Shown: piece by piece, positions 32,243 to 54,961 of the stretch
How positions within the stretch are numbered: the stretch's first letter is position 1
Layout of the letters: each line of letters starts with the position of its first letter
From: a virus
Virus record (IMG/VR): IMGVR_UViG_3300001450_000001
Coordinates: 81,442 to 145,441 of that record
Reading direction: 5' to 3' (one strand)
DNA: 64,000 nucleotides
Made by a program: the position numbers and the translations under genes
Notes under the pieces: model-generated
Told to the model about the DNA's origin: nothing
The model's database searches: none
What the model saw: only the letters and a program-made list of their open reading frames with translations

Positions 32243-32243
32243 T

Positions 32244-37000: not shown

Positions 37001-37293
37001 TGTTTACACCAACAGGAGGAAATGTAGTATTAAAAGGATTAGAACCAGATGAAATGACATCAGGTGGAGTAATTATGCCAGAAGTTGATGCAGAAGTATC
37101 ACTTAAAGGCGAAGTATTAGCAGTAGGTCCCGGCCCACTACTAAATACTGGAAAAAGAGGTCATATGCAATGTAAGGTAGGCGATGTAGTATACTATCCA
37201 AAATTTTCAGCTAAAAGACTTGAAGTTAATAGAGAAGAGTTCATCGTATGTAGAGAAGATGAAATTTTAACAATTTATAAGGAGACAAAATAA
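37000..37293 (+). CDS. groES: Co-chaperonin GroES
   Basis: 97 residues, the usual GroES length. 'FTPTGGNVVLKGLEPDEMTS' with 'GGVIMPE' covers the start and the mobile loop region. 'KGEVLAVGPGPLLNTGKRG', 'CKVGDVVYYPKFSAKRLEV' and 'IVCREDEILTIYKE' are standard GroES segments. It caps the GroEL ring. The stop codon overlaps the groEL start (TAATG), so the two are translationally coupled. AAGGAGGCAATA precedes the start. Confidence 0.93.
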   Translation: MFTPTGGNVVLKGLEPDEMTSGGVIMPEVDAEVSLKGEVLAVGPGPLLNTGKRGHMQCKVGDVVYYPKFSAKRLEVNREEFIVCREDEILTIYKETK

Positions 37294-38951
37294 TGAAGAA
37301 AAGAATTGAATTTAACGAAGATGCAAGAAGCCTAATTGGAAAAGGTGTTCAAAAACTTTCAACAGCAGTTAGTGCAACTTTAGGACCTAAAGGTAGAAAT
37401 GTAATTCTTGAAAAAAATGGTGAGTTTGTATCAACAAAAGATGGTGTTTCTGTTGCAAAGGAAGTATTTTTGGAAGATGAAGTTGAAAATGCAGGTGCAC
37501 AAATGGTAAAAGAGGTTGCAAATCAAGTTAACGATGAGGCAGGTGATGGAACAACTACAGCCACTGTATTAGCAAATTCAATACTAAGAAGAGGTTTTAA
37601 TTGTATCACAGAACTAAAGGCTAATCCAGTTGATATAAAAAGGGGAATGGATATTGGGGTAACTTCAGTAGTAGAAAAGCTTGATGATATAGCAACAGAT
37701 ATCTCTTCTCAAGAAGAAATAGAACAGGTGGCTACAATTTCAGCAAACAATGATGCTGAGGTTGGTAAGTTAATTGCAACTGCAATGGATAAAGTAGGAA
37801 GAGAAGGTGTAATTACAGTAGAGGAGTCTAGAACAAATGATACATACCTTGAAACAGTAGAAGGTGTTCAATTTGATAGAGGTTATATATCACCATACTT
37901 TGTTACAGATAATAATCACATGCATGCACAATTTGAAGACCCATGGATATTATTGGTTGACAAAAAGATTCAAACACTTAAAGAGTTAGTAAAACCATTA
38001 GAAGCTGCAATCGCACAAGACAAGCCACTATTAATAGTTGCTCATGATGTTGAAGGCGAGGCACTAGCTGGACTTATTGTAAATAAGGCAAGGGGAACAC
38101 TTAAGGTTGCTGCAGTAAAGGCACCTGAATTTGGTGAAAAGAGAACTCAATTGCTTGAGGATATTGCAACAATTACTGGAGGAACAGTAATAAGTAAGAA
38201 TAAAGGTCATAAACTAGATACTATTAATGTATCAGACTTTGCAGGTAGTGCAAAAACAGTAACTGTTAGTGGAAAGTCAACAACAATAGTTGATGGTGCA
38301 GGTGACCCAGAATCAATAGCAAATAGAGTAAACGAGATTAAGGTACTACTTGAAACATCAGACTCAGACTATGAAAAAGAAGTATATCAGCAAAGAGTTG
38401 GAAAGATGGCTGGAGGTGTAGCAATTCTTAAAATAGGTGCTGAATCAGAAATTGAAATGAAGGAAAAGAAGGACAGAGTTGAGGATGCATTACATGCTAC
38501 TAGGGCTGCACTTGATGAAGGTATAGTACCTGGTGGAGGAATTGCACTAAGAAGTTGCTTTGATGATGATGTTGTTGATGATGTATTTGAAAATGAGGAC
38601 CAAATTACAGGCTATAGAATTGTGATGGAAGCAGTACAAGAGCCATTTGAAATCATTATGAAAAATGCAGGCCTTGATGCAGCAAATATCTGGAATGAGA
38701 TTCATGCATTTGATGGAATGTCAGATGAAGACTCTGTACCTTTTACTATGGGCTTTGATGCAAGAACAGAACAAGTTGTTGATATGATGAAATCTGGTAT
38801 TATTGATCCAGCAAAAGTAACAAGAGTTGCATTAGAAAAAGCTGTTTCAGTTGCAGGTACAATTTTAACAACTGAGTGTATAATTATTAATGAAAATAAC
38901 AATGAAGAAGAAGCTGCCCAACCAATGGGTGGTGGATTTGGAATGATGTAA
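37293..38951 (+). CDS. groEL: Chaperonin GroEL
   Basis: 552 residues, full length. The ATP-binding segment 'GDGTTTAT' (84-91), '[15 protein letters not shown]' near 27, '[13 protein letters not shown]' near 408 (with the ATPase Asp just upstream in the family) and '[18 protein letters not shown]' near 510 are intact. The C-terminus ends 'PMGGGFGMM', the Gly/Met tail of bacterial GroEL. With GroES it should form a functional folding chamber, presumably for capsid or other virion proteins. GGAG precedes the start. No sign of decay. Confidence 0.96.
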
Positions 38952-40370: not shown

Positions 40371-41288
40371 ATGCAAATAAAAACACCAAAAGACTTAGCT
40401 ATAAAGGCCAGAATGATGGGGAAAAAGACCATCTCATACAGCCAGTTAAATATGTATAAAGGTTGCCCACTACAATGGAAGCTTACATATATTGACAAAC
40501 ACAGAGAATTTATACCTTCTATGTTTCTAGTATTTGGTACGGCAATGCATGAGGTATTACAACAATACTTAACAACAATGTATGAAAAAACTGCTGTCGC
40601 AGCAAATGCATTCGACTCTGAAAAGATGTTAAAAGAATGTATGGCAACAGAATATAAAAAAGCAGTAAAAGACACTGGTGGCCATTTTTCTGATCCTGCA
40701 GAAATGCAAGAATTCTATGATGAAGGTGTATTAATTATAGACTACTTTAAGAAAAGGCGAGGTGCATATTTTTCAAAAAAGAATACAGAACTACTTGGTG
40801 TTGAAATACCAATTTTATGCGAAAGTGATGACAACTCAAATATAATGTTAATGGGTTTTGCAGATATTGTAATGAAGCAAGGTGACACAATTACAATATA
40901 TGACATTAAAACTTCAATGTTTGGTTGGAAGGCAAAAAAGAAAAAGGCAGAAGGTGATCAGCTTAGAATATACAAAAGGTATTTCTCAAAGCAATATGAT
41001 GTACCAGAGGAAAATATAAACATAGAATACTTTATAGTCAAAAGAAAGCTATATGAAAACTTTGACTTCCCCCAAAAAAGGATACAACAATATAGACCTC
41101 CACATGGTAAGGTCTCTATGAATAAAACAAAAAAGCTATTAACTGAATTTATAGCCCACGCATTTACAGATGATGGAAAGCACAATAAAGATGCAAACTA
41201 TCCAGCACTAAGAACAGGTTGCACATACTGTTCATTCAAGAAAAATTATGAATTGTGCCCAAAACAAAATAGAAAGTTAGTAAAATGA
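40371..41288 (+). CDS. Cas4/RecB-like PD-(D/E)XK nuclease
   Basis: 305 residues. 'ISYSQLNMYKGCPLQWKLTY' at the start with 'FGTAMHEVLQQYL' is the RecB-nuclease-domain signature. The active site is 'LMGFADIVM...ITIYDIKTS' (Asp, then Asp-x-Lys), followed by 'DQLRIYKRYF' (Gln-x3-Tyr). A C-terminal cysteine set ('GCTYCSFKKNYELCP', with an early Cys near residue 30) could hold an iron-sulfur cluster as in Cas4/AddB. Role: end-processing exonuclease in recombination or host DNA degradation. No CRISPR genes are nearby. Confidence 0.85.
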   Translation: MQIKTPKDLAIKARMMGKKTISYSQLNMYKGCPLQWKLTYIDKHREFIPSMFLVFGTAMHEVLQQYLTTMYEKTAVAANAFDSEKMLKECMATEYKKAVKDTGGHFSDPAEMQEFYDEGVLIIDYFKKRRGAYFSKKNTELLGVEIPILCESDDNSNIMLMGFADIVMKQGDTITIYDIKTSMFGWKAKKKKAEGDQLRIYKRYFSKQYDVPEENINIEYFIVKRKLYENFDFPQKRIQQYRPPHGKVSMNKTKKLLTEFIAHAFTDDGKHNKDANYPALRTGCTYCSFKKNYELCPKQNRKLVK

Positions 41289-42046
41289 TATATTGGTTTA
41301 CAGGCCAGCCAGGAGCTGGAAAGACAACATTAGCAAAAGCACTTATAGATAGATGTAGTGATAATTGTATTCACATAGATGGAGATGGATTAAGGGATCT
41401 ATTTCAAAATTTTAATTATAGTCCAGAAGGTAGGAGAAAGAATATAAGGTCAGTACTAGACCTTTGTAGATTCCTAGACAATAAAGGGTTTACACCAGTA
41501 GTGTCAGTAGTTGCACCTTATAGAGATATGAGAGATGAATTAAAAGAGACAAATGATGTCACTGAGATATATGTACACACAACTGATATAAGGGGAAGAG
41601 AGAAATATTTTGCACAAGATTATGAAAAGCCAATAGAGCACTTTATAGATATTGATACAACAGGCTCTCCGACACTTGATGAGTGCCTTGAAGGTATTGA
41701 ATTTAATAGAAAGAAGAAAAATACATACTTCTGCGACATTGATGGAACAATATTTAAGTACAGAAAATTTGAAACATATGAATCTACAGATGCAGAACCA
41801 ATAAAGGCAACAGTGGATAAGTTAAATGAATGGTATGATGATGGCCATATGATAATATTAACAACTGCTAGACCAGAGACATTAAAGGGGCTTACGATAG
41901 GTGAGCTAACAAAAAGTGGAATCCCATATGATAAATTAATTATGGGTATTGAAAGAGGCCCTAGATATATTATAAATGATATGGACCCAAATAAGTCTGG
42001 CAAAAGAGCAATAGCAATAAATGTAAAAAGGGATAAAGGGATATGA
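41285..42046 (+). CDS. Adenylylsulfate (APS) kinase fused to HAD phosphatase
   Basis: 253 residues. The N-terminal half is a CysC-type kinase: P-loop 'GQPGAGKTT' (7-15), 'HIDGDGLRDLFQ' near 30, 'GRRKNIRSVLDLCRFLDNKG' and 'VVAPYRDMRDELK'. Residues 145-250 are a HAD domain with 'YFCDIDGTIFKY' (Asp151), 'IILTTARPE' and 'YIINDMDP'. APS kinase makes PAPS, the sulfate donor used by sulfotransferases such as the one at 49591. The HAD part may act on PAP or a sugar phosphate; unknown. ATGA overlaps on both sides. Confidence 0.85.
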   Translation: MIYWFTGQPGAGKTTLAKALIDRCSDNCIHIDGDGLRDLFQNFNYSPEGRRKNIRSVLDLCRFLDNKGFTPVVSVVAPYRDMRDELKETNDVTEIYVHTTDIRGREKYFAQDYEKPIEHFIDIDTTGSPTLDECLEGIEFNRKKKNTYFCDIDGTIFKYRKFETYESTDAEPIKATVDKLNEWYDDGHMIILTTARPETLKGLTIGELTKSGIPYDKLIMGIERGPRYIINDMDPNKSGKRAIAINVKRDKGI

Positions 42047-42396
42047 AAAAGTACTCAATGTTTATAGGAAGGTGGCAGCCTTGGCACAAAGGACACCGAT
42101 GGTTAATAGATCAAAGGCTTAATGAAGGTAAGAATGTATGGATAGCAATAAGAGATGTTAAACCAAATGAAAATCAACCTTGGACACCACATGAGGTTCT
42201 AACAAATCTAAGTAGTGAGCTAAAAGGCTTAATAGATGAAGGTAGAATAAAAATAACAATAGTTCCAGACATAGAATCAGTAAATTATGGTAGAGGTGTA
42301 GGATATGAAGTTATAGAACACGTACCACCTAATCAAGTTGAACAAATTTCAGCAACAAAGATTAGAGCTCAAATGAGAAAGGAGGGTTCCTTGTGA
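42043..42396 (+). CDS. Nucleotidyltransferase (HxGH family)
   Basis: 117 residues. 'FIGRWQPWHKGHRWLIDQ' carries the HxGH nucleotide-binding motif and 'ISATKIRAQMRKEG' the C-terminal ISxTxIR motif, the pair that defines cytidylyl/adenylyltransferases (NMN adenylyltransferase, glycerol-phosphate cytidylyltransferase). The protein is short but complete. It overlaps the APS kinase and DUF2061 genes, so it likely works in that pathway. The substrate is unknown. Confidence 0.8.
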   Translation: MKKYSMFIGRWQPWHKGHRWLIDQRLNEGKNVWIAIRDVKPNENQPWTPHEVLTNLSSELKGLIDEGRIKITIVPDIESVNYGRGVGYEVIEHVPPNQVEQISATKIRAQMRKEGSL

Positions 42397-42623
42397 TTGT
42401 AAGAAATAGTTGGCCAGCAAGAAAAAGGCACATAGTTAAAACTATTACGTGGAGAGCTATAGGAACATTGGACACAATGGCATTAGGTTGGCTAATTACA
42501 GGAGACCCAATTGTTGGGCTAAAGGTGGGAGGACTTGAGCTCTTTACAAAAATGATATTATACTATTTTCACGAAAGGGCATGGTATATATATAGACCAA
42601 ATAGAAATAAGAATAGAAAATGA
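42393..42623 (+). CDS. DUF2061-type membrane protein
   Basis: 76 residues from a GTG start overlapping the previous stop. 'IVKTITWRAIGTLDTMALGW' and 'ELFTKMILYYFHERAWYIY' match the DUF2061 pattern (KTxxWR...EhxxKxxLYYxHER). Two hydrophobic helices suggest an inner-membrane protein. In bacteria this family is often linked to sulfate-assimilation genes, which agrees with the neighbouring APS kinase. Confidence 0.8.
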   Translation: MIVRNSWPARKRHIVKTITWRAIGTLDTMALGWLITGDPIVGLKVGGLELFTKMILYYFHERAWYIYRPNRNKNRK

Positions 42624-43021
42624 AAGTAGGAATAATAGGAAGTAGGCAATACGAAAATAGAAAGAAGGTTAAGGACACAATTTTTAACTTACAGAAAAAG
42701 TTCGGGTCAAAGTTAACAATTGTTAGTGGCGGATGCAAAGATGGTGCAGACAGGTATGCAAAGAAGTTTGCACTAGAATTTAACTGTAAATATGTTGAAT
42801 TTAATCCGGCACATACTGTCTACAATTTTTATTCAGCACTTAACGAGAAATATTACGGAAAGCAATATAATACAAAGCACTTCTTTATAAGAAATGTTAT
42901 GTTAGCAAAGTATTGTGATGTAGTTATAGGATTTGTAGCAACTGGAAACGAGGCAAGAGGAACTAACCATGCACTCACAGAAGCTAAAAAAAATAATAAG
43001 AAAGTCGTAATTATTTCATAA
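42620..43021 (+). CDS. SLOG/DprA-like nucleotide-binding protein
   Basis: 133 residues. 'MKVGIIGSRQYENRKKVKD', 'LTIVSGGCKDGADRYAKKFA' and 'DVVIGFVATGNEARGTNHAL' form the SLOG-type Rossmann fold (GSR, SGGxxGAD, GTxxA). Members bind nucleotides or sugars and include DprA- and YspA/DUF2493-type proteins. A role in nucleotide sensing or DNA processing is possible. Ends the 40.4-43.0 kb operon. Confidence 0.75.
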   Translation: MKVGIIGSRQYENRKKVKDTIFNLQKKFGSKLTIVSGGCKDGADRYAKKFALEFNCKYVEFNPAHTVYNFYSALNEKYYGKQYNTKHFFIRNVMLAKYCDVVIGFVATGNEARGTNHALTEAKKNNKKVVIIS

Positions 43022-43027
43022 TGAATA

Positions 43028-43037
43028 TATATTTATA
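43028..43037 (+). promoter_or_regulatory. TATATTTATA motif before the RHH gene
   Basis: TATATTTATA is 24 bases before the small regulator gene, followed by TTGGAGG. It is a one-base variant of the recurring GATATTTATA motif and identical to that at 4238. Confidence 0.35.
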
Positions 43038-43060
43038 TACAAATATAATTGGAGGTTATG

Positions 43061-43228
43061 ATGGATAGACACAAAAAAAGGTTAACATCTGTGAACGTAG
43101 ATAAAAACATTCACAAGGAGTTCAAAATTCTTAGTATTAAGGAAGGTATTACTTTTCAAAAGTTAGTTAATTTAACTTTGGAAATGTATATTAAAGACAA
43201 AGAGTTTAGAAGCAAATTTAATAAATAA
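43061..43228 (+). CDS. Small ribbon-helix-helix DNA-binding protein
   Basis: 55 residues; ATG 43061 is five bases after GGAGG, with another in-frame ATG at 43058. 'RLTSVNVDKNIHKEFKILSI' gives the beta-ribbon and first helix, 'KEGITFQKLVNLTLEMYI' the second, a typical Arc/CopG/MetJ layout. Such proteins are usually dimeric transcription repressors. It is a candidate regulator of the glycan cluster downstream or of the 67-bp promoter elements. Confidence 0.75.
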   Translation: MDRHKKRLTSVNVDKNIHKEFKILSIKEGITFQKLVNLTLEMYIKDKEFRSKFNK

Positions 43229-43242
43229 TTAGGGAAAAGGTT

Positions 43243-44664
43243 ATGACAAAAAAGAAGAAGATACTCTTATTAGGTGATGATATTAGGCTACCGTCTGGTG
43301 TTGGCACAATGAGTAAAGAAATAGTACTAAAGTCTTTAGATAAATATGACTGGGTACAGATAGCAGGTGCACTACAATCACCAGATAAAGGTAATGTAGT
43401 TGACTTAAGTAAAAATGAGGATGTAAAAAGGGATAGCGGTGTTGATAACTTCTATCTTAAGTTATATCCAGTAGATGGTTATGGAAACAAGCAAATATTA
43501 CAGCAGATATTATCAATCGAGAAGCCTGATGCAATAATACACTTTACAGACCCAAGGTTTTGGGGTTGGCTATATCAAATGGAGCATGAATTAAGACAAA
43601 CTACTCCTATTATGTACTATAATATATGGGATGACCTTCCTTTTCCTCATTGGAATGAGCCATTCTATGACTGTTGTGATTCACTAATTGCAATATCAAA
43701 ACAAACATATAATATAAATAAGCATGTATGCCAAAAGAATCCGAGAAAAGAAGGTGTAGATTTAACATATGTACCACATGGAGTTGATGAAAAGGTATTT
43801 AAGCCACTTGACAAATCTGATAAGGGCTTAATTGAATTTAAGGATAAATATTTCCCACAACTAAGTGATGATTCTTTTGTTTTACTATTTAATAGCAGAA
43901 ATATACAAAGAAAGAGACCACAAGATTTAATACTAGCATATAAAACATTTGTTGATTCACTAGAGACTGAGGCTGAAAGGCAAAATGCATTTCTAATACT
44001 ACATACAGATCCAATAGATCAAAATGGAACAGATCTCCCTGCAGTAGTTAAAGCATTAGCTCCTAAAGCAAATGTTATATTCTCAAGTGGAAAGATACCA
44101 TCAAATCAGCTAAATTATCTATACAATCTTTCAGATGTAACCTGTCAACCAAGCTCAGCTGAAGGATTTGGTCTTAGTGTAATGGAATCAATAATGTCAG
44201 GAACACCAATTATTGCAAGCTGTATAGGTGGCCTGCAGGACCAGATGGGCTTTAAGAATGAAAAAGGTAATGACCTAACAGTAAATGACTATACAGAATC
44301 TTGGCCAAGTAATAGTAATGGTAGATATAAAGAACATGGTGAATGGGCATTTCCAATGTGGCCACAAATAAACTTGGTAGGTTCACCAGTAACACCTTAT
44401 ATTTATGATAGTAGAGTTAGTGTAAGTGATATAACAAATGCAATAAATAGTGTATATTCATTAAGCAAAGATGAAAGATCTTCAGCTGGAACAAAAGGTA
44501 GAGAATGGGCCTTAGCAAATAATTTTACTGCGCAAGCAATGGCAGATGGCGTATCTAACTCTATTGATATTTGTCTTAATTCATTTAAGCCTAGAAAAAT
44601 ATTTACACTAAAAAGAAAAACAAATAATAAATTAATAAAATACCCTACGGGAGTTATAAGATGA
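43243..44664 (+). CDS. Glycosyltransferase, GT4-like
   Basis: 473 residues. N-terminal 'ILLLGDDIRLPSGVGTMSKE' is the acceptor-side Rossmann fold start. The C-terminal donor domain holds 'LLFNSRNIQRKRPQDLILAY' and 'SSAEGFGLSVMESIMSGTPI', the Glu-x7-Glu nucleotide-sugar motif of retaining GT-B enzymes. It is the first gene of the 43-56 kb glycan cluster and overlaps the next GT gene (ATGA). Sugar and acceptor are unknown. Confidence 0.85.
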   Translation: MTKKKKILLLGDDIRLPSGVGTMSKEIVLKSLDKYDWVQIAGALQSPDKGNVVDLSKNEDVKRDSGVDNFYLKLYPVDGYGNKQILQQILSIEKPDAIIHFTDPRFWGWLYQMEHELRQTTPIMYYNIWDDLPFPHWNEPFYDCCDSLIAISKQTYNINKHVCQKNPRKEGVDLTYVPHGVDEKVFKPLDKSDKGLIEFKDKYFPQLSDDSFVLLFNSRNIQRKRPQDLILAYKTFVDSLETEAERQNAFLILHTDPIDQNGTDLPAVVKALAPKANVIFSSGKIPSNQLNYLYNLSDVTCQPSSAEGFGLSVMESIMSGTPIIASCIGGLQDQMGFKNEKGNDLTVNDYTESWPSNSNGRYKEHGEWAFPMWPQINLVGSPVTPYIYDSRVSVSDITNAINSVYSLSKDERSSAGTKGREWALANNFTAQAMADGVSNSIDICLNSFKPRKIFTLKRKTNNKLIKYPTGVIR

Positions 44665-45914
44665 GTAAAACAACAATAGGCTTTCAGGCCCCAATATTTT
44701 CAAGATCTGGATATGGAGATCATGCAAGAGATCTATTAAAAAGCTTAATAGCTATGGATAGGTTTGATATTAAATGTGTTCCAACAAACTGGGGAGACTG
44801 CCCAAATGATAAGTTTCCAGAATTTGAAAAGTATGTACTTAAAGATCAAAAGCAACAAATTGATGTATTCATGCAGCTATCAGTACCTAATGAATTCAAG
44901 AAAGTTGCAAAATATAATATAGGAATTACTGCTGGAATAGAAACAACACAGGCACCTCACGAGTGGATAGATGGCTGTAATAGAATGGACAGAGTAATCG
45001 TACCATCACACCACGCAAGGCAAATTCTTGTGGATACAGTATATGATAAAAAAAATGACCAAACAGGTGAAATTATAGGCTCGCTTAAGTGTGAAGTTCC
45101 AATAGACGTACTATTTGAAGGAATAGATACAGATGTATTTAGAAAGGTTGACAAGGCTGAGATACCAGCTACAATAGTAGATAGCCTAGACAATATAGAT
45201 GAAGACTTTTGCTTCTTATTTACAGGACATTGGATTGCAGGAGGGTTTGGCCATGACAGAAAAGATATTGGTGGAACAATAAAGACATTCTTAGAAACAT
45301 TTAAGAATACAGGCAAATCAAAGAGGCCAGCACTAGTAATAAAGACATCTGGTGCAACATTTAGCATACTTGAATATAACGAAATAGATAAAAAGATACA
45401 ACAAATTACTGAAGGATATGATAATCCTCCAAACATATATGTTCTTGAAGGTAAATTAACTGAAGACGAGATGAATGGTTTATATAATCATCCAAAGATT
45501 AAGGCTATGGTGTCATTTTCTCATGGTGAAGGATATGGAAGGCCACTAGCAGAATTCTGTATAACACAAAAGCCACTAATTGTATCAAATTGGTCAGGAC
45601 AAGTAGACTTCACTACACATGCAATTAAGCTACCAGGTAAGCTAATGGAAGTGGACAAATCTGCAGCAAATAATATGATATTAAAAGGCTCGAAATGGTT
45701 TTATGTTGATTATGGCTATGCATCAAGTATATTAAAAGATGTATTTAAGAATTATAAGACATATATACCAGATGCAAGAAAGCAGGCAAGATTAATAAGA
45801 GAAGACTTTAATTTGGATGAAATGACAAAAAGTTTTGATAAAATACTTGAATCAAATCTTCCAAAGTTTGCAAAAAAGATTAAGTTAAACATACCAAAAC
45901 TGGAGAAAGTATAA
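44661..45914 (+). CDS. Glycosyltransferase, GT-B fold
   Basis: 417 residues. N-terminus 'TTIGFQAPIFSRSGYGDHAR' resembles the start of GT4-type enzymes. The C-terminal 'VSFSHGEGYGRPLAEFCITQ' with 'KPLIVSNWSGQVDF' is the donor-binding segment. A large insert lies around residues 120-190. It overlaps genes on both sides. A different, likely related, second transferase of the cluster; substrate unknown. Confidence 0.8.
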   Translation: MSKTTIGFQAPIFSRSGYGDHARDLLKSLIAMDRFDIKCVPTNWGDCPNDKFPEFEKYVLKDQKQQIDVFMQLSVPNEFKKVAKYNIGITAGIETTQAPHEWIDGCNRMDRVIVPSHHARQILVDTVYDKKNDQTGEIIGSLKCEVPIDVLFEGIDTDVFRKVDKAEIPATIVDSLDNIDEDFCFLFTGHWIAGGFGHDRKDIGGTIKTFLETFKNTGKSKRPALVIKTSGATFSILEYNEIDKKIQQITEGYDNPPNIYVLEGKLTEDEMNGLYNHPKIKAMVSFSHGEGYGRPLAEFCITQKPLIVSNWSGQVDFTTHAIKLPGKLMEVDKSAANNMILKGSKWFYVDYGYASSILKDVFKNYKTYIPDARKQARLIREDFNLDEMTKSFDKILESNLPKFAKKIKLNIPKLEKV

Positions 45915-46375
45915 TGGATAATAGCAAAGCTGAATGGGTAGTAAGCCCAATAACAAATGAAAAGCATGTAATACAAGAGCTTGATGATAGACATGGAGTG
46001 TCAAAGATGTGTGTTGGAAGTGGATTCTATACTAATGAAAATCCGTTAAATTATAAAAAGAACCCAGACTTTGATATAGAAAAGTATGAATCGAATATGC
46101 CAAAATTAATGAAAGACCTAAGATTTGATGATGGAGAATCATATTGGTACCCAACAACTATACAGACTGAGAGAGGAATGATATATCCTGAGGGGCGCAA
46201 GGATAAATGGGGCTGGTCATACACACCAATTGTTCAGCTAACAGAAGATGAGGCTTCTAGTGCTTCGCAGGGCACACTAAAGTATGAGTCTAAATTAGAA
46301 ACAAAAGACACTAAGCACTTTAAGAGATTCTTAGAGGCATGTAATGAAATGGGCGAGATAAAATTCGATGGCTAA
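45914..46375 (+). CDS. Hypothetical protein in glycan cluster
   Basis: 153 residues, TAATG-coupled to the preceding transferase. It contains 'GVSKMCVGSGFYTNENPLNY' and 'DGESYWYPTTIQTERGMIYP', Trp/Tyr-rich. No family recognised. The short acidic C-terminus overlaps the next gene. It may be a virion protein or part of the glycan pathway. Confidence 0.6.
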   Translation: MDNSKAEWVVSPITNEKHVIQELDDRHGVSKMCVGSGFYTNENPLNYKKNPDFDIEKYESNMPKLMKDLRFDDGESYWYPTTIQTERGMIYPEGRKDKWGWSYTPIVQLTEDEASSASQGTLKYESKLETKDTKHFKRFLEACNEMGEIKFDG

Positions 46376-46850
46376 GCAAAAGGTAGAAGGTAGATTAAAT
46401 GAGCACTTGATTAGAGTGCAAGGTAAGTACCCAACAAATATAGCTAAACTAGAAAGAGGTATGTTAATTGAGTGTAGATACAAAGGGCTAGAAGGTGCAA
46501 GTAAGAGGCAAGTATTAGTTGTACTAAATGCAGAACACCTAAAGAAGACTCATTGTATGTCATTGGATAAAGTATCATATAGTGCATTTAATAGATGGGT
46601 TGAATCTGTAGGTTTAAGAACACTAGATACAACACCTGAAATATTGGCATTAGATATACCAGTTCTTCAAATGCAGGCAGACCCAAGAAACTTCTATAAA
46701 ACAGTATTAAAGGCAACATATAAGACAGATACTTTTGGTTTAGGTGATAGCTATAGAACTTTTTTCACTGCTAAGCTAAGAGGAATACAATTATTAGATT
46801 ATAAATTTAACAGTAAGGTAGAAAAATTATGGCGAAAGAACTCACTATAG
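46368..46850 (+). CDS. Hypothetical protein
   Basis: 160 residues. Pattern: 'IAKLERGMLIECRYKG', 'RQVLVVLNAEHLKKTHCMSL', 'FFTAKLRGIQLLDYKFNSKV'. The 'LVVLN...K.HCMSLD' arrangement recalls proteins of unknown role in many T4-like phages. It overlaps neighbours on both sides, implying translation coupled with the glycan genes. Confidence 0.6.
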   Translation: MAKQKVEGRLNEHLIRVQGKYPTNIAKLERGMLIECRYKGLEGASKRQVLVVLNAEHLKKTHCMSLDKVSYSAFNRWVESVGLRTLDTTPEILALDIPVLQMQADPRNFYKTVLKATYKTDTFGLGDSYRTFFTAKLRGIQLLDYKFNSKVEKLWRKNSL

Positions 46851-47479
46851 GATACATGATTCTCTGTAAGAATGAAGATGAATCACTTAATCAATTATTA
46901 AAACAAATTACTGAATTAAAAGGCACTAGTGACAAAGTTTATATTGTTCGAGACTCAAACGGATCAAATAATAAGACAAAATATATAATTGAAAGCTATA
47001 AGGATGATATTATATCATTTGAAAAGCCTGTAGATAAGGCAATTCATGACCAAAAAAATTGGCTGGCAACACAAGCAGATACAGACTATTTATTCTATTT
47101 AGATGCAGATGAATTGCTTGATGAAAGATTCTATATGATAGTTCATAATCTAATAAGTACAAATGATGTTGATGTATTCTTTCTACCAAGAACTAATATT
47201 GTAGAAGGGCTTACAGAGGAATATAGAGCTTCAAGAGGTTGGGTCTTAGATGAAAAAGGTAGAGTTAACTGGCCAGATGTTCAGGACAGGCTATTCAGAA
47301 ATAATAAAGGTATTCATTTTAATCCAATACCTCACGGAAGACTAATAGGGCAAGACACATTCGCAGCACTACCAGAGGAAGAGCTTTATGCAATATATCA
47401 TAGAAAAACACTGGAAAAACAAGTTAGTGATAATGACTGGCATGATAATAAAGAAAGAGAAATGGGATTAAGGAAATGA
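46829..47479 (+). CDS. Glycosyltransferase, GT2-like (GT-A fold)
   Basis: 216 residues. 'TIGYMILCKNEDESLNQLLK' is the GT2 start. 'YLFYLDADELLDERFYMIV' carries the DxD-type metal/UDP motif near residue 90, and 'NWPDVQDRLFRNNKGIHFNP' fits the acceptor region of GT2 enzymes of the LPS type. ATG 46829 lies within the preceding gene's end. Ends in an ATGA overlap with the next transferase. Confidence 0.8.
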   Translation: MAKELTIGYMILCKNEDESLNQLLKQITELKGTSDKVYIVRDSNGSNNKTKYIIESYKDDIISFEKPVDKAIHDQKNWLATQADTDYLFYLDADELLDERFYMIVHNLISTNDVDVFFLPRTNIVEGLTEEYRASRGWVLDEKGRVNWPDVQDRLFRNNKGIHFNPIPHGRLIGQDTFAALPEEELYAIYHRKTLEKQVSDNDWHDNKEREMGLRK

Positions 47480-48786
47480 AGACACCAATTATAATGTGTA
47501 ATTGGAAGAGGACAGATAATATACCTAGAACTCTTGCAATGCTTGAAGGCCAAACAACTCATGAATTCGATTTGTATATTTGGAATAATAATGCTGATGA
47601 TAGTAAAAAACTAGATGAAATAGTGTCAATGTATAAGCTATCATATAATATTGAAGTTCACCATAGCAAAGATAATGTAGGAGGAATAGGAAGATTCTAT
47701 TTTGCAAAGAATCTAACAGATCAATACGAAGGCCCATGTATTTTTATAGATGATGATGTACAATTTGGTGAAGATATGGTAGAGACATTCTTATCAGAAT
47801 ATAGACCAGATACAATATTTTCATTTTATGCACATAGAATAAAAGAGTCCTACTGGGATAAGGAAGGAGTTGATACTCCTGGAGAGGATGTCGATTACTG
47901 TGGTACTGGTGGTATGATATTACCAATTCGTGTGTTTACCGAAAACGAACTTTTTGATAATTTGCCAGATAAGTACAAATTTATTGAAGATTTATGGTTA
48001 AGCTATTACTTTAAGCACAAATATAAAGGCAACCTTAAGAGATCAAATAATAATTTCATTCTTGAGTCTGATCAGCATGATCAAGGTAGACAGACTGAGT
48101 TAAGATCCAAGAAGGATGAGCTGCTTGACTTTTGTAAAGATACATTCATAAGAAATGAGACAAAACTTTCAAAAAAGTTTAATAACATGTTTGAAGAGAC
48201 CTATGTTGTAAATATGAAGTCAAGACCAGATAGAATGATAAGGTCAAAGTCTAGGTTAAAAGATCTTTCTATAAACTTTAGAAGGTTTGAGGCAGTAGAT
48301 GGCAATACACAAGCTAGACACCAAAACTTAAACTCAGGAGAGGTAGGATGCTATCTATCACATTTTAATATAATATCAGAGGCAAAGGCAAGGGGCCTAA
48401 AGTCAATTCTTATATTGGAAGATGATGTAGTATTTATTGACAATATGCTTGAAAAGTTTTTTGAAGGCTATAGTAATATACCAGAAGATTGGGAGATGAT
48501 CTATTTAGGTTGCAATCACAAAAAGCCATATACAAGAGTAAATGACAAAATAGTAAAATGTAATTTTGCATATACAACATCAGCTTATATTATAAAAGAT
48601 ACCGCCTACGACAAGCTACTTGAAGCAACAAGATTCATTAACAGACAAATTGATGTACAATATGCAGAGATGCAAGCTGCTGGCCAGCTAAATGCATATG
48701 CTTTCCACCCTTGGCTAATGTATCAAGAGGATGGATGGAGTGATATACAACAAAGAAATGTAGACTACGGAATGATGAGGTTATAA
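47476..48786 (+). CDS. Bifunctional glycosyltransferase, GT2-like plus GT25-like
   Basis: 436 residues with two domains. Residues 1-230: 'TPIIMCNWKRTDNIPRTLAM' and 'GPCIFIDDDVQFGEDMVETF', a GT-A fold with a DDD metal motif. Residues from about 240: 'TYVVNMKSRPDRMIRSKSRL', 'SGEVGCYLSHFNIISEAKAR' and 'SILILEDDVVFIDNMLEKFF', the signature of LPS-type GT25 enzymes. Such fusions could add two sugars in sequence. It overlaps both neighbours by a few bases. Confidence 0.82.
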   Translation: MKTPIIMCNWKRTDNIPRTLAMLEGQTTHEFDLYIWNNNADDSKKLDEIVSMYKLSYNIEVHHSKDNVGGIGRFYFAKNLTDQYEGPCIFIDDDVQFGEDMVETFLSEYRPDTIFSFYAHRIKESYWDKEGVDTPGEDVDYCGTGGMILPIRVFTENELFDNLPDKYKFIEDLWLSYYFKHKYKGNLKRSNNNFILESDQHDQGRQTELRSKKDELLDFCKDTFIRNETKLSKKFNNMFEETYVVNMKSRPDRMIRSKSRLKDLSINFRRFEAVDGNTQARHQNLNSGEVGCYLSHFNIISEAKARGLKSILILEDDVVFIDNMLEKFFEGYSNIPEDWEMIYLGCNHKKPYTRVNDKIVKCNFAYTTSAYIIKDTAYDKLLEATRFINRQIDVQYAEMQAAGQLNAYAFHPWLMYQEDGWSDIQQRNVDYGMMRL

Positions 48787-49544
48787 TGGCAAGTGTAATT
48801 ATAAAAGATAGTATCAATAATAATGGCCTCGGAAATACACTATTTCAGTTAGCAGCTGCAAAGGCAGCATCTTTAAGGGATGGTGTAGAAATGACAAGCA
48901 CAATACCTCCAGGATATAATGAGTATAAAGATAATATACTTAGAAATATAAAGATATCAGAAAGTATACAAAACAATATCTACAAAGAGCAGTCATTTGA
49001 ATATAATGAAATACCGCCAAACGTCTCACTAGATGGATACTTTCAGTCAGAGCAATACTTTTATGACTATGGTGGCTTTATATATGATATGCTCTCACCA
49101 ACAAAAGAGATAGAAGATTATATAGATAATAAATACGGAAACATATTATTCAATAGTCTTGGGATACATATAAGAAGGGGTGATTATATAAAATACCCAA
49201 CAATGCATCCAGTATGTAATATGGAATACTACTCAAAGGCTATAGGCTTACTAGCAGATAAGAAGTTATACAGTAATTACATAATCTTTAGTGATGATAT
49301 CAACTGGTGTAAGGATAACTTTAGTAGTGAATTTAACTTTATTGAAGGCGAGAAGGACTATATTGATATGTATACAATGTCTATGTGTAGCGACAACGTT
49401 ATAGCAAATAGTACATTTAGTTGGTGGGCTGCTTGGCTAAATAGAAATAGTGACAAAAGAGTTGTTGCACCTATGACTTGGTTTGGAACAGATAAGAAAC
49501 TAAATACAAATGACTTAATACCAAAAGAATGGATAAAAATATGA
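48786..49544 (+). CDS. Alpha-1,2-fucosyltransferase-like (GT11)
   Basis: 252 residues. 'NNNGLGNTLFQLAAAKAAS' at the start and 'LGIHIRRGDYIKYPTMH' (HIRRGDY, 128-134) are the GT11 hallmarks, the latter binding GDP-fucose. 'ANSTFSWWAAWLN' near 200 is also conserved in the family. GDP-fucose can be supplied by Gmd and Fcl encoded at 52.9-55.9 kb. The acceptor is unknown. Confidence 0.88.
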   Translation: MASVIIKDSINNNGLGNTLFQLAAAKAASLRDGVEMTSTIPPGYNEYKDNILRNIKISESIQNNIYKEQSFEYNEIPPNVSLDGYFQSEQYFYDYGGFIYDMLSPTKEIEDYIDNKYGNILFNSLGIHIRRGDYIKYPTMHPVCNMEYYSKAIGLLADKKLYSNYIIFSDDINWCKDNFSSEFNFIEGEKDYIDMYTMSMCSDNVIANSTFSWWAAWLNRNSDKRVVAPMTWFGTDKKLNTNDLIPKEWIKI

Positions 49545-49563
49545 AATTAAAAAAGTTAAGTAA

Positions 49564-49585
49564 TTCACAAAAAATTGTTATATTA
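49564..49585 (+). promoter_or_regulatory. TTCACA...TTATATTA promoter-like element
   Basis: TTCACA, an A-run, then TTGTTATATTA, ending five bases before ATG 49591 without a ribosome binding site. It matches 28655-28676 at 21 of 22 positions and the end of the 67-bp element at 30888 at 20 of 22. It opens a new unit inside the glycan cluster. Confidence 0.6.
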
Positions 49586-49590
49586 TACAT

Positions 49591-50211
49591 ATGAAAAACT
49601 TTGACAAAAACATAACACAATTAGTTTCTTACCCAAGAACAGGAAGTCACTGGGTAAGAATGGTAATGGAAAAATATCTTGGAGAATATTGCTTACCAAC
49701 ATCATTTTACAACTCTAAACTTCATTGGGGCTTTCACTTACACGATAGAGAAGTAGGAAATGGAGATGAAGGCATCACTGAGGGATTTGACAGAGTAATC
49801 TATTTATATAGAAATCCAGTTGATGTTGTATATTCTCTGCTAAAGTATGAAAGCTGGGGAGATGATAGAAGAGGTGAGATAATAGAAGAGTATAAAATCC
49901 ATCTTAATAGATGGCTAAATAACAATAGTGATATTAAACACATCATGTTTATAAAGTACGAAGATATAAAAGCCGACCCAGTCTCTTCATTTACAAAGAT
50001 TCTTGAGTTTATAGGATTCCAAGATGTTAGAGAGGACACTCTTGCAAAAATATGTAATGAGTCAACTTTAAAGAACCTAAAGCAGTCTATAGGTGATGAT
50101 AGTGTGATAAATGAAAACCACTTTGGTGGAGATTATAAGACTGAGAGAGAGAGATTTAGAGATAATTATGGTAGTACTATATTAAAGGAGTTTGAGGGGT
50201 TATGGCTGTAA
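49591..50211 (+). CDS. PAPS-dependent sulfotransferase
   Basis: 206 residues. The 5'-phosphosulfate loop is 'VSYPRTGSHWVRMVME' (12-27), and the 3'-phosphate segment is 'YRNPVDVVYSLLKYE' (73-87). 'IKYEDIKADPVSSFTKILEF' follows, as in cytosolic-type and bacterial sulfotransferases. Together these identify PAPS binding. PAPS can come from the phage APS kinase at 41285. It lies between two fucosyltransferase genes, so a sulfated sugar is a reasonable inference. Confidence 0.88.
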   Translation: MKNFDKNITQLVSYPRTGSHWVRMVMEKYLGEYCLPTSFYNSKLHWGFHLHDREVGNGDEGITEGFDRVIYLYRNPVDVVYSLLKYESWGDDRRGEIIEEYKIHLNRWLNNNSDIKHIMFIKYEDIKADPVSSFTKILEFIGFQDVREDTLAKICNESTLKNLKQSIGDDSVINENHFGGDYKTERERFRDNYGSTILKEFEGLWL

Positions 50212-51110
50212 AAGTAAACATATGGGATACAAATAATGCTCACTCAAATAGCTGGAAAGAAGCTGGCCTTGAGTGTGGTATAAGAATAGATAGCTCACCA
50301 CTTATTACTGGACCAGAAAATGTTGAATGGGTTAGAGGACTAAAGTCATTTGAAGGCATAACAGTATTTACAGATAGCTATCTAGATAGAGAATTAATTT
50401 CATCTGTAAACTCAACAGTCAAGGTAGGCCTAGTAATGGAGCCAATTGCACACAAATACAAACCATATAATGACATTCAGGAAGTTGAAGATCTACTAGA
50501 CTTTATATTTACATTTAATAAGCAATTAATAGATAAGGATCCAAATAAATATAAATTTATTCCAGCAGATTGGGTCTGTATAGAGCAAAAATCTCATGGA
50601 TTAAATGTAAATGGCAAGACAAAGCTTGTATCAATGTTGTACTCTAACAAGGGAGGGATAGATAGGCCTATGAGGCATAATGTTGCTGATATGTTTTCTG
50701 ATAAAATAGATCTTTTTGGAGGACCTGCAGGTGAAGTTAAATTAAAATCATCAACACTAAATGACTATATGTTTTCAGTAGCTATTGAAAACTCAGTAGA
50801 CAACTTTTACTATACAGAAAAGATCATTGATTGTTTTATAACAGGTAACATTCCGATATATAGAGGTGCCAAGAATATATCTGAATTCTTTGACAAGAGA
50901 GGTATAATAGAATGGAATACACTTGATGAGTTAGACACAATATTAAATAGTATAACAAAACAGAAGTATTATGATATGCTACCATTTGCACAGAATAATT
51001 TTAATATGGCTAAAAAATATATTAGCTCAGATGATGTACTTCTTGAATTAATTTATAAGTGCATTAGTAATAAAGAATATGACACAATAGGAGAGTTTAG
51101 ATATGAATAG
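50202..51110 (+). CDS. Alpha-1,3-fucosyltransferase-like (GT10)
   Basis: 302 residues. 'YMFSVAIENSVDNFYYTEKI' followed by 'IDCFITGNIPIYRGAKNISE' (about 189-228) is the diagnostic GT10 donor-binding block of alpha-1,3/1,4-fucosyltransferases. The start overlaps the sulfotransferase by ten bases (GGGGTT before ATG). A second fucosyl linkage in addition to the GT11 enzyme is implied. Helicobacter and eukaryotic enzymes share this motif. Confidence 0.88.
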   Translation: MAVKVNIWDTNNAHSNSWKEAGLECGIRIDSSPLITGPENVEWVRGLKSFEGITVFTDSYLDRELISSVNSTVKVGLVMEPIAHKYKPYNDIQEVEDLLDFIFTFNKQLIDKDPNKYKFIPADWVCIEQKSHGLNVNGKTKLVSMLYSNKGGIDRPMRHNVADMFSDKIDLFGGPAGEVKLKSSTLNDYMFSVAIENSVDNFYYTEKIIDCFITGNIPIYRGAKNISEFFDKRGIIEWNTLDELDTILNSITKQKYYDMLPFAQNNFNMAKKYISSDDVLLELIYKCISNKEYDTIGEFRYE

Positions 51111-52329: not shown

Positions 52330-52947
52330 ATGGAAGATCAATTTATTAAACAAGAACATGACAGATGGTTCAGAGATATGGGTGACACAACAAGGCTACT
52401 TAACTATAATCTTAATAGTGATTCTGTAGTGTTCGACTGTGGAGGCTATATGGGCAATTGGTCTAGCAACATATATAGTAAGTATGAGTGTAATATACAC
52501 ATATTCGAGCCACTAAAAGAATACCAAGGATATATTAAGCAGCTATTAGGTAATAATAAAAAAGTGCAAATTAATAAATTTGGAGTATCAAACCAAAATA
52601 GAGCTGCAAATATATACTTACAGAAGGATGGTTCATCGGAATACCTAGTTCAAGACAAAGATGCAGACTATGAAGCTGTAAAATTAAAGAGACTTTCTGA
52701 TCTAATAGACTCAAATATTGACCTAATAAAGATGAACATTGAAGGTTCAGAATATGAAGTAGTAATAGACTTAATAAATACTAAGAAGATAAAATTTATA
52801 GATAATTTACTTGTACAATTTCATTCTGAAAATGATGGCATAGAAGGTGCAACTAATATAAGAAAAGATATACATGATAGTCTGAAGAAGACTCATAAGC
52901 TATCTTGGAACTATGAATTTTGCTGGGAAAGCTGGGAGAGATTATGA
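52330..52947 (+). CDS. FkbM-family methyltransferase
   Basis: 205 residues. 'SVVFDCGGYMGNWSSNIYSK' is motif I, 'NIHIFEPLKEYQGYIKQLL' has the acidic residue, and 'DLIKMNIEGSEYEVVIDL' is the FkbM signature (D-x-x-K-x-D/N-x-E-G-x-E). FkbM enzymes O-methylate sugars or other hydroxyl groups. It is one of two possible methyltransferases in the glycan cluster. Ends in an ATGA overlap with fcl. Confidence 0.82.
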   Translation: MEDQFIKQEHDRWFRDMGDTTRLLNYNLNSDSVVFDCGGYMGNWSSNIYSKYECNIHIFEPLKEYQGYIKQLLGNNKKVQINKFGVSNQNRAANIYLQKDGSSEYLVQDKDADYEAVKLKRLSDLIDSNIDLIKMNIEGSEYEVVIDLINTKKIKFIDNLLVQFHSENDGIEGATNIRKDIHDSLKKTHKLSWNYEFCWESWERL

Positions 52948-53849
52948 AATTACTAGTTACAGGAGGCACAGGATTAGTTGGTTCTGCAATAAAAGACGCT
53001 AACTTTAGGCTAAATTCTGCAGATGCTGATCTAAGGTGTGCTGACCAATGCAATAATATATTTAATGAAAAGAAGCCAACACACGTAATCCACTGTGCAG
53101 CAAGAGTAGGAGGCTTAGGTGGTAATATGGATGCAAAAGGCGAGTTTTACTATGATAATATAATGATGAACACTAATGTTATAGAGGCCTGTAGAAAATA
53201 TAATGTAGAAAAGCTTATATGCTTTTTATCTACGTGTGTATTCCCAGATAATGCCACTTACCCACTAACAGAGGAAATGATCCATGAAGGAGAGCCACAT
53301 AGTTCAAATTTTGGCTATGCATATGCAAAGAGAATGGCAGATGTACAAATTAGGGCATATAAAGAGCAATATGGACTAAAATACTTATCTGTTATACCAT
53401 GTGGTGTCTATGGAATAAATGATAACTTTAATATAAAAAATGGCCATGTAATTCCTTCACTAATACATAAGTGTTATATAGCAAAACACACAAATACAGA
53501 CTTTGAGGTTTGGGGTTCTGGTGAGCCACTAAGAGAGTTTTTATACTCAAAAGACATAGGAAAGATATGTAATTATTTGATAGAAAATCACAATGGAACA
53601 GATCCTATAATATTAACTAGTGGCCTTGAGTATTCTATAAAGGATATAGTAAGTTTAATAGTTAATGCAATGGAGTTTAAGGGGAATGTAAAGTGGCTTG
53701 ATGATAAACCAGATGGCCAATACAGAAAGCCAGCATCAAATAAGAGACTATTATCAATAATTCCAGACCTTGAGTTTACACCGATTGAGGTAGGAATAAA
53801 AGAGACTGTAGAATGGTTTACAGAGAACTATGAAAGGGCAAGAAAATGA
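52944..53849 (+). CDS. fcl: GDP-L-fucose synthase
   Basis: 301 residues from ATG 52944 (ATGA overlap). 'LLVTGGTGLVGSAI' (3-16) binds NADPH. 'ICFLSTCVFPDNATYPLTEE' and 'NFGYAYAKRMADVQIRAYKE' with Tyr125-x3-Lys129 are the GDP-fucose synthase active-site blocks. 'VWGSGEPLREFLYSKDIGKI' is a strongly conserved Fcl segment. It epimerises and reduces GDP-4-keto-6-deoxymannose. Together with Gmd at 54951 it completes GDP-L-fucose synthesis. Confidence 0.9.
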   Translation: MKLLVTGGTGLVGSAIKDANFRLNSADADLRCADQCNNIFNEKKPTHVIHCAARVGGLGGNMDAKGEFYYDNIMMNTNVIEACRKYNVEKLICFLSTCVFPDNATYPLTEEMIHEGEPHSSNFGYAYAKRMADVQIRAYKEQYGLKYLSVIPCGVYGINDNFNIKNGHVIPSLIHKCYIAKHTNTDFEVWGSGEPLREFLYSKDIGKICNYLIENHNGTDPIILTSGLEYSIKDIVSLIVNAMEFKGNVKWLDDKPDGQYRKPASNKRLLSIIPDLEFTPIEVGIKETVEWFTENYERARK

Positions 53850-54256: not shown

Positions 54257-54961
54257 ATGGCAAATAAAAAATACACAGTCTGGCCAGTAGGCAAGCTACC
54301 TAAGGAGCTACAAAGGCCTGAGCTAGACCAACTAAGAGAGGCTGGTTATAAATGGGATGACCCAAGAGATGCAATAGATATGTTTGAGGAAAAGGTTGCA
54401 AAATTTGCAGGTAGTAAATATGCAGTTGCATTAGATACATGTTCACATGGCCTATTCTTGTGCATGAAATATATGAAATGTAAAGGTAAGATAACAATAC
54501 CTAAAAACACATATTGTTCACCTCCAATGCAAATTATACATGCAGGCTGTGAGGTTGAATTTGAAGACTTAGAATGGTCAGGTGTCTATCAATTTAAGCC
54601 ATATAATATATGGGATGGTGCAGTTAGGTGGCAAAAAGGGATGTATGTTGGTAATGATGCACTACAAGTTGTGTCATTCCAGATAAAGAAAAGGGTACCT
54701 ATAGGAAAAGGCGGAATAATAATGACAGACAGCAAAGAGGCGTATGAGTGGTTTAAGTATGCATCTTATGATGGAAGAGACCTAACAAAGCAATATATGG
54801 ATGATGACTTTAATATGATAGGTTGGCACTTTTATATGACACCAGAAGATGCTGCAAGAGGAATACTCTTAATGGACCAAATACCAGAGTGGAATGAAGA
54901 CACTGGAAACTCAAATACATACTCAGATATATCAAAAAAGGAGATCTTTAATGGAAAATAA
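54257..54961 (+). CDS. Short DegT/StrS-type PLP aminotransferase
   Basis: 234 residues, against about 370 for the family. N-terminal 'FEEKVAKFAGSKYAVALDTC', 'ITIPKNTYCSPPMQIIHAGC' and 'VVSFQIKKRVPIGKGGIIMT' (lysine for PLP) match the large domain of sugar aminotransferases. The C-terminal domain is missing; the frame ends in the gmd overlap without sign of a frameshift. A full enzyme would make GDP-perosamine from Gmd product; this short form may be a specialised or reduced enzyme. Confidence 0.75.
   Translation: MANKKYTVWPVGKLPKELQRPELDQLREAGYKWDDPRDAIDMFEEKVAKFAGSKYAVALDTCSHGLFLCMKYMKCKGKITIPKNTYCSPPMQIIHAGCEVEFEDLEWSGVYQFKPYNIWDGAVRWQKGMYVGNDALQVVSFQIKKRVPIGKGGIIMTDSKEAYEWFKYASYDGRDLTKQYMDDDFNMIGWHFYMTPEDAARGILLMDQIPEWNEDTGNSNTYSDISKKEIFNGK

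Follow-up and report, generated by a model that had tools for sequence, protein, structure and literature searches.

What would a phage make with an enzyme of sulfate activation and a sulfotransferase, and from what starting material? The question is raised by a 64,000-nucleotide stretch of DNA (the window), the final part of the 145,441-base virus record IMGVR_UViG_3300001450_000001 (positions 81,442 to 145,441), in which an adenosine 5'-phosphosulfate (APS) kinase-type domain fused to a HAD-type domain is encoded upstream of a sulfotransferase. The window encodes a T4-like tail sheath, whose nearest phage relatives were Flavobacterium phages immuto (46%), and no tRNA genes were found in the window. 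From gene content and the context of related genes, we consider it probable that this phage carries a sulfation module leading from sulfate through APS and 3'-phosphoadenosine 5'-phosphosulfate (PAPS) to a sulfated product. This compact group of genes is also found in numerous further viruses and in some bacteria. The features at the centre of the analysis are as follows.

41285-42046, + strand: kinase-HAD fusion, 253 aa (open reading frame (ORF) call)
41285-41710, + strand: APS-kinase-type domain of a short-lid subfamily, residues about 1-142 (PF01583, AlphaFold2 (AF2) model, Foldseek)
41711-42046, + strand: HAD-type domain fused to the kinase (weak Pfam and PHROG matches)
42043-42396, + strand: HxGH-type nucleotidyltransferase, 117 aa (PF01467)
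42393-42623, + strand: DUF2061, small predicted membrane protein, 76 aa (PF09834, 80.9 bits)
49591-50211, + strand: sulfotransferase, 206 aa (PF00685, 58.3 bits)

A sequence-only reading of the window had named the APS kinase-HAD fusion and the sulfotransferase, both with their motifs, and had set a DUF2061 protein and a nucleotidyltransferase beside the kinase. Both enzymes were recovered where that reading had put them, the HAD half matching weakly, and the two smaller genes proved to be overlapping ORFs next to the kinase. The sulfotransferase lies 7.5 kb downstream of the kinase, on the same strand and non-adjacent in this phage.

The kinase domain

The kinase passed the PF01583 APS_kinase cut-off (60.8 versus 21.1 bits), although the match covers only positions 4-110 of the 152 in the profile. 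Direct reading identified the P-loop GQPGAGKT (41303-41326), the DGD motif, R37, R50 and N53, and residues D32, G33, D34, R37, R50 and N53 were invariant across a 52-row alignment of short-lid kinases. Residues 1-140 were modelled confidently by AF2 and the HAD half poorly. When the kinase model was searched with Foldseek, APS kinases were returned first (best 7yq1, E = 2.4e-8, TM score by target 0.69). By profile and alignment, the window kinase is assigned to PF01583 as a short-lid member outside the TIGR00455 equivalog. A polynucleotide-kinase reading of the fusion was rejected, as phrog_505 and phrog_415 match the HAD half only and Foldseek of the kinase half gives APS kinases.

The substrate was left open by sequence and fold, and cellular gene context was therefore sought. 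Searching bacterial genomes with the kinase alignment yielded 52 loci, in 10 of which greedy ORF calling hid the kinase, which affects the DUF2061 counts there. Among the 26 Bacteroidota-type loci (L098-L122 and L127; L099 carries the title Euryarchaeota), cysD or cysN was present within the fetched flanks in 21, often in the order kinase-DUF2061-cysD-cysN. A Pfam check showed that the L099 kinase, in a cysD/cysN operon, also bears a HAD domain. In the two Verrucomicrobia loci that were read, sulfotransferase-type genes lie beside the kinase, scoring above the cut-off in L136 and below it in L132. Given the cellular cysD/cysN context, the most fitting reading of the short-lid kinase is that of an authentic APS kinase. 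DUF2061 adjoins cysC/cysD in many of the Bacteroidota loci, and we class it as a predicted small membrane protein linked with the activation of sulfate.

The HAD half (residues 144-253) gave weak Pfam matches below the cut-offs (Acid_phosphat_B 22.5 versus 27 bits, HAD_PNKP 19.3 versus 27, Hydrolase_3 16.1 versus 20.9) and matched HAD-containing PHROG families at E values of 5e-13 to 2e-9.

Sulfotransferases and their link to the kinase

The window sulfotransferase passed Sulfotransfer_1 (PF00685, 58.3 versus 22 bits). The PAPS-loop motif SYPRTGSHWVR was read at 49627-49659, together with the YRNPVDVVYSLLKYE region. Sulfotransferases in the PDB were matched at E = 8e-10, SYPRTGSHWVR falling on the N-terminal loop of 5x2b in the alignment, and two viral sulfotransferase profiles had 49591-50211 as their sole match across the window plus 80 kb of the sequence before it. 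The enzyme had no tblastn match among 50,697 phage records and no exact-pattern match in IMG/VR, and co-occurrence was therefore tested with Pfam models and the sulfotransferases of the relatives themselves.

Kinase relatives were present in 350 IMG/VR stretches; 80 loci were fetched and, with the window's own, 81 were examined. Whole-record searches covered 50 of the 80 kinase-bearing records (the longest contigs). PF00685 was matched in 22 of these 50, and in 16 of the 22 the sulfotransferase shares the strand of the kinase and ends less than 450 b upstream of it. A sulfotransferase gene of ~272 aa occurs in 19 of the 81 loci, six times with a 4-base overlap with the kinase start. Another 13 of the 50 records, all lacking PF00685, carry a second family (240-270 aa, PRCAST-type motif), which lies 1.7-5.4 kb downstream in 18 of the 81 loci. 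The profile of this family matches heparan sulfate 2-O-sulfotransferase (HS2ST; E = 4e-4); of six members scanned, three had no sulfotransferase match and two had Sulfotransfer_1 matches below the cut-off, one of these also matching Sulfotransfer_2 (18.0 versus 22 bits). We assign this family as HS2ST-like with moderate confidence. In one group of relatives (L026, L033, L051, L053 and similar loci), genes for a 2OG-oxygenase, a tryptophan-halogenase-like protein and a NodU-type carbamoyltransferase are found near the kinase and its neighbours along with the second sulfotransferase family.

A lineage control by DNA polymerase gave only 7 relatives, and random contigs took its place. Of 56 virus records sharing an arbitrary 14-mer, the 33 with a length of 25 kb or more were kept and the 23 shorter ones dropped. 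Neither PF00685 (0/33) nor the second family (0/33) was detected in these control records, compared with one or the other family in 35 of the 50 kinase-bearing records. The Fisher p-values (1.5e-6 for PF00685; 9.5e-12 for both families, 35/50 versus 0/33) are too strong, given near-duplicates among the 50 and a control unmatched for lineage or habitat; the adjacency of the genes is independent of them. Co-occurrence of the two genes in other phages was one of the checks that the sequence-only reading had proposed, and it came out positive. These patterns support a general functional link between the APS-kinase-type enzyme and a putative PAPS-dependent sulfotransferase.

A conserved cassette in viruses

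In 78 of the 81 viral loci the kinase-or-HAD gene abuts the nucleotidyltransferase (gap up to 30 b, same strand). The exceptions are L047 and L059, which lack the nucleotidyltransferase in the examined stretch, and L023, which has it 573 b away. DUF2061 was found by BLAST in 71 of the 81 loci, and it lies at most 60 b from the nucleotidyltransferase in 62 of the 81. A conserved cassette is made up of the kinase, the nucleotidyltransferase and, in most cases, DUF2061. The HAD domain is fused in 5 of the 81 loci and is a separate gene inside the cassette in 30 (count by reading), in many viral relatives between kinase and nucleotidyltransferase. In the window, genes for a PDDEXK protein, the kinase-HAD fusion, the nucleotidyltransferase, DUF2061 and a SLOG-type protein follow in that order and are read as one unit because each overlaps the next by 4 bases.

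Other genes were observed near the cassette. A QueC-type gene (133 bits) lies at L069:7376-8167, with the same cluster in L054, L067 and L081, and three tandem paralogous ORFs (287-299 aa) are located upstream of the kinase at L008:8125-9006 and neighbours.

The nucleotidyltransferase as a candidate ATP sulfurylase

The nucleotidyltransferase passed CTP_transf_like (PF01467, 23.7 versus 21 bits), with the motifs GRWQPWHKGH (42067-42096) and ISATKIR (42346-42366). An alignment of 60 family members keeps GRWQ..H.GH, R37-D38, GRGVGY and IS.T.IR, and in some proteins (e.g. L131) the kinase and nucleotidyltransferase are fused. The AF2 model had a predicted local distance difference test (pLDDT) score of 81. 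By structural alignment (VIA-align) it gave Z of about 6 to the ATP sulfurylases 1i2d, 7fha and 1g8f, but 6-8 to phosphopantetheine adenylyltransferase (PPAT) and nicotinamide mononucleotide (NMN) adenylyltransferase (NMNAT), and a Foldseek search with it returned no match at E = 0.001 or better.

Of 41 kinase-bearing bacterial genomes, 7 have the nucleotidyltransferase beside the kinase (5 Marinimicrobia, 1 Bacteroidota fusion and 1 viral-looking Chitinophagaceae contig). CysD was present in none of these 7 versus 32 of the 34 others, and Sat in none of the 41. Among 199 genomes of the phylum Marinimicrobia, 12 carried a strong nucleotidyltransferase match (E < 1e-50). Sat or CysN above the cut-off was found in 0 of these 12, and at least one of them in 103 of the 187 others (p = 1e-4), a comparison that is limited in that the carriers are mostly one clade with genomes of 0.7-1.0 Mb, possibly incomplete, and are non-independent, representing one or two events. 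A thirteenth genome (G249), with the nucleotidyltransferase gene in two pieces, was also without Sat and CysN, and a weak match in G144 was a pantothenate-synthetase-like ORF (by reading). Across the 395 genomes of G084's class, G084 itself held the only strong match, beside a single weak one.

An APS-kinase-type gene lies near the nucleotidyltransferase in all 12 strong Marinimicrobia carriers and is adjacent in 11. In G190 this partner is a canonical CysC (TIGR00455, 268.6 bits; cut-off 138.7), the stop of which overlaps the nucleotidyltransferase start. The locus shares the neighbourhood of its relatives, with a Sulfotransfer_5 gene upstream, and in the tree the G190 nucleotidyltransferase nests among viral ones paired with the short-lid kinase (100/85 support). 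With a canonical CysC in G190 and the short-lid kinase in its relatives, two different APS kinases therefore appear to serve the same partner. A Sulfotransfer_5 gene was present in the fetched stretch of 10 of the 12 carriers; G081 had none, and the G263 stretch is only 3.5 kb. A branched-chain-aminotransferase-like ORF (by reading) was also seen near the Marinimicrobia kinase pair, in most cases adjoining the Sulfotransfer_5 gene (L123, L125, L128, L130, L230).

From these patterns the 117-aa nucleotidyltransferase emerges as the leading candidate for a so far unrecognised ATP sulfurylase of minimal size, and the route may therefore start at sulfate rather than APS. The sequence-only reading had drawn a route from APS to a sulfated product; its link between kinase and sulfotransferase was borne out by the relatives and by the cellular cysD/cysN context, and the route it drew probably begins one step earlier, at sulfate. 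Whether the enzyme represents a third ATP sulfurylase class beside Sat and CysDN, largely spread by viruses and forming with the short-lid kinase a minimal sulfate-to-PAPS pathway in phages and some streamlined marine bacteria, for surface-glycan sulfation rather than assimilation, we regard as evenly balanced.

Neighbouring genes and the possible acceptor

The remaining features of the region are listed here.

42620-43021: SLOG/YspA-family protein; overlaps the DUF2061 gene by 4 bases and is kept in L003 and L005
48786-49544, + strand: GT11, alpha-1,2-fucosyltransferase-type, 252 aa, possible acceptor builder (PF01531, 98.9 bits)
50202-51110, + strand: GT10, fucosyltransferase-type, 302 aa, possible acceptor builder (PF00852, 32.3 bits, cut-off 23.9)
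52920-53849, + strand: NAD-dependent epimerase, GDP-fucose-synthase-like (PF01370, 160.7 bits; phrog_540 nucleotide-sugar epimerase)
54894-55937, + strand: GDP-mannose 4,6-dehydratase (PF16363, 390.8 bits)

The sulfotransferase gene is flanked by GT11 and GT10 in the order originally described, with Pfam scores of 98.9 and 32.3 bits. A run of glycosyltransferases surrounds it, followed by an FkbM methyltransferase, the epimerase and the dehydratase, and the last two genes could plausibly supply GDP-fucose. Judged from the gene neighbourhood, a fucosylated glycan is the likeliest acceptor in this phage. Such an acceptor is plausible in this genome only, because of the GT10 and GT11 neighbours and the GDP-fucose genes; in most relatives the sulfotransferase neighbours differ and include very long ORFs, glycosyltransferases, a carbamoyltransferase and a 2OG oxygenase.

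A DegT/DnrJ aminotransferase (54257-54961) between the epimerase and the dehydratase has just 234 aa (profile 360) and is perhaps truncated. Elsewhere in the window, DNA polymerase III alpha (DnaE-like) is encoded in two adjacent ORFs (427 and 748 aa, 30959-34490) alongside the T4-like tail sheath, and a full-length Cpn60/GroEL (552 aa, 221 bits) at 37293-38951.

Proposed pathway and alternative explanations

In the proposed pathway, the nucleotidyltransferase would let sulfate attack ATP, releasing pyrophosphate (PPi) and forming APS. From its family, fold and context, the short-lid kinase would phosphorylate APS at the 3' position to give PAPS, from which the sulfotransferase, by family a PAPS-dependent-type enzyme, would transfer the sulfuryl group to an acceptor. 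The most probable acceptor would be a fucosylated glycan made by the neighbouring GT11, GT10 and other glycosyltransferases with GDP-fucose from the dehydratase and epimerase pair. The HAD domain, which we propose as a phosphatase of adenosine 3',5'-bisphosphate (PAP) or a pyrophosphatase, might pull the pathway by clearing PAP or PPi. The sulfated product would most likely be displayed on the virion or the infected cell surface; mimicry or protection, which the sequence-only reading called conceivable, would be a further step beyond this pathway.

Several observations weigh against this pathway. The window kinase falls short of the TIGR00455 equivalog cut-off (64.2 versus 138.7 bits, profile 20-124 of 184), and when viral and cellular members were aligned with canonical enzymes, the short-lid family proved to lack the canonical lid region KGLYKKAR..FTGI. 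The nucleotidyltransferase gave no match to the Sat family PF01747 at E up to 1; its closest sequence resemblance is to NMN adenylyltransferases, far below their cut-offs (PRK01153 31.5 versus 127 bits; TIGR01527 25.1 versus 181.2). G063 and G082 are without CysD as well, yet have no nucleotidyltransferase beside the kinase, and G240 holds a divergent kinase-nucleotidyltransferase pair together with Sat. Neither sulfotransferase family was found in 15 of the 50 kinase records. Among these 15 are G001 (170.8 kb) and G002 (105.3 kb), which have the longest records of the phage's near relatives (kinase 78%). Among the 50,697 phage records, a divergent kinase-nucleotidyltransferase fusion was found in 5, a Sulfotransfer_4-type gene of the same neighbourhood (25.7 versus 22.8 bits) in 6 and both in 4, these isolated phages being close relatives of each other and few events. 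DLP_6 has the fusion and no match to the Sulfotransfer_4-type gene. In Stenotrophomonas phage Suzuki a NADAR-like gene (by reading) lies between fusion and sulfotransferase, and AhaSv has a MazG-like gene; an NAD-related alternative is therefore possible for this divergent branch.

Extended to the phage itself, that alternative would place the kinase and nucleotidyltransferase in NAD or phosphoramidate-type chemistry (NadR-like or Campylobacter Cj1415/Cj1416-like), with an indirect link to the sulfotransferase. The NMNAT-like sequence of the nucleotidyltransferase, the NADAR-like neighbour in Suzuki and the fact that Cj1415-type kinases carry an APS kinase annotation all speak for it, but the cellular kinase orthologues stand in cysD/cysN operons and a canonical CysC replaces the short-lid kinase at the same site in G190, and we hold it to be very unlikely. 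A smaller departure from the sulfation module is that the phage supplies PAPS from APS provided by the host, the nucleotidyltransferase making an activated sugar or another glycan precursor. Its resemblance to NMN adenylyltransferases and cytidylyltransferase-like proteins is consistent with this, as is the frequent position of the cassette among glycan genes. The nucleotidyltransferase nevertheless accompanies the kinase in 78 of the 81 loci whichever glycan genes surround them, forms one polypeptide with it in some cases, has two kinds of APS kinase as partners and occurs where CysD/CysN and Sat do not, and we rate host-supplied APS as unlikely.

The remaining possibility is that viral cysC serves assimilatory sulfate reduction, the usual assumption in work on viromes, and that the sulfotransferase is unrelated. 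A table in a 2025 review lists viral cysC under assimilatory sulfate reduction, unvalidated (PMC12713726), but the sulfotransferase is adjacent to the kinase in many relatives and co-occurs with it, and we find this account most improbable. A PAPS-reduction reading was set aside, the PAPS reductase family PF01507 not being found in this virus record.

If the phage does carry a sulfation module, the cassette ties viral cysC, counted as assimilatory, to viral sulfotransferases, which are listed without a role; PMC10580990 states that phage sulfotransferase function remains unclear. The cassette suggests a job for these enzymes, the sulfation of a surface product during infection. Should the nucleotidyltransferase indeed make APS, it would be a third enzyme class for a central reaction of sulfur metabolism, placed by present models nearest NMN adenylyltransferases, and genomes thought incapable of sulfate activation would need re-reading. 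A full-text literature search, with most subscription journals outside it, returned nothing that links an APS kinase to a sulfotransferase in phages and nothing that identifies this nucleotidyltransferase as an ATP sulfurylase.

Comparison with known systems

The sulfotransferases of cyanophages S-SRM01, S-SCSM1 and S-SKS1, and also those of OM43 phages, belong to the same family; the three cyanophage enzymes show 29-31% identity to the viral operon enzyme. Unlike this phage, the three cyanophage records gave no kinase match. The Stenotrophomonas/Xanthomonas phage fusion (phrog_10255 type) joins both domains in one protein and, in 4 of 5 records, is accompanied by a Sulfotransfer_4-type gene in the vicinity, but differs in its divergent kinase (PF01583, 24.0 and 37.9 bits) and NADAR-like neighbour. 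Compared with CysC (PF01583, TIGR00455), the window kinase has a short lid, a TIGR00455 score below the cut-off and the HAD fusion, whereas the P-loop, DGD, R and GR..N motifs, the fold and the cysD/cysN operons of its cellular orthologues are alike. The PAPS synthetases and SAT/APS kinase fusions (human PAPSS, Aquifex) differ from the phage nucleotidyltransferase, which has 117 residues, is unrecognised as Sat and aligns equally well or better with NMNAT and PPAT structures; in these systems, too, the kinase is connected with a nucleotidyl-transferring domain, one that belongs to the superfamily of the phage enzyme.

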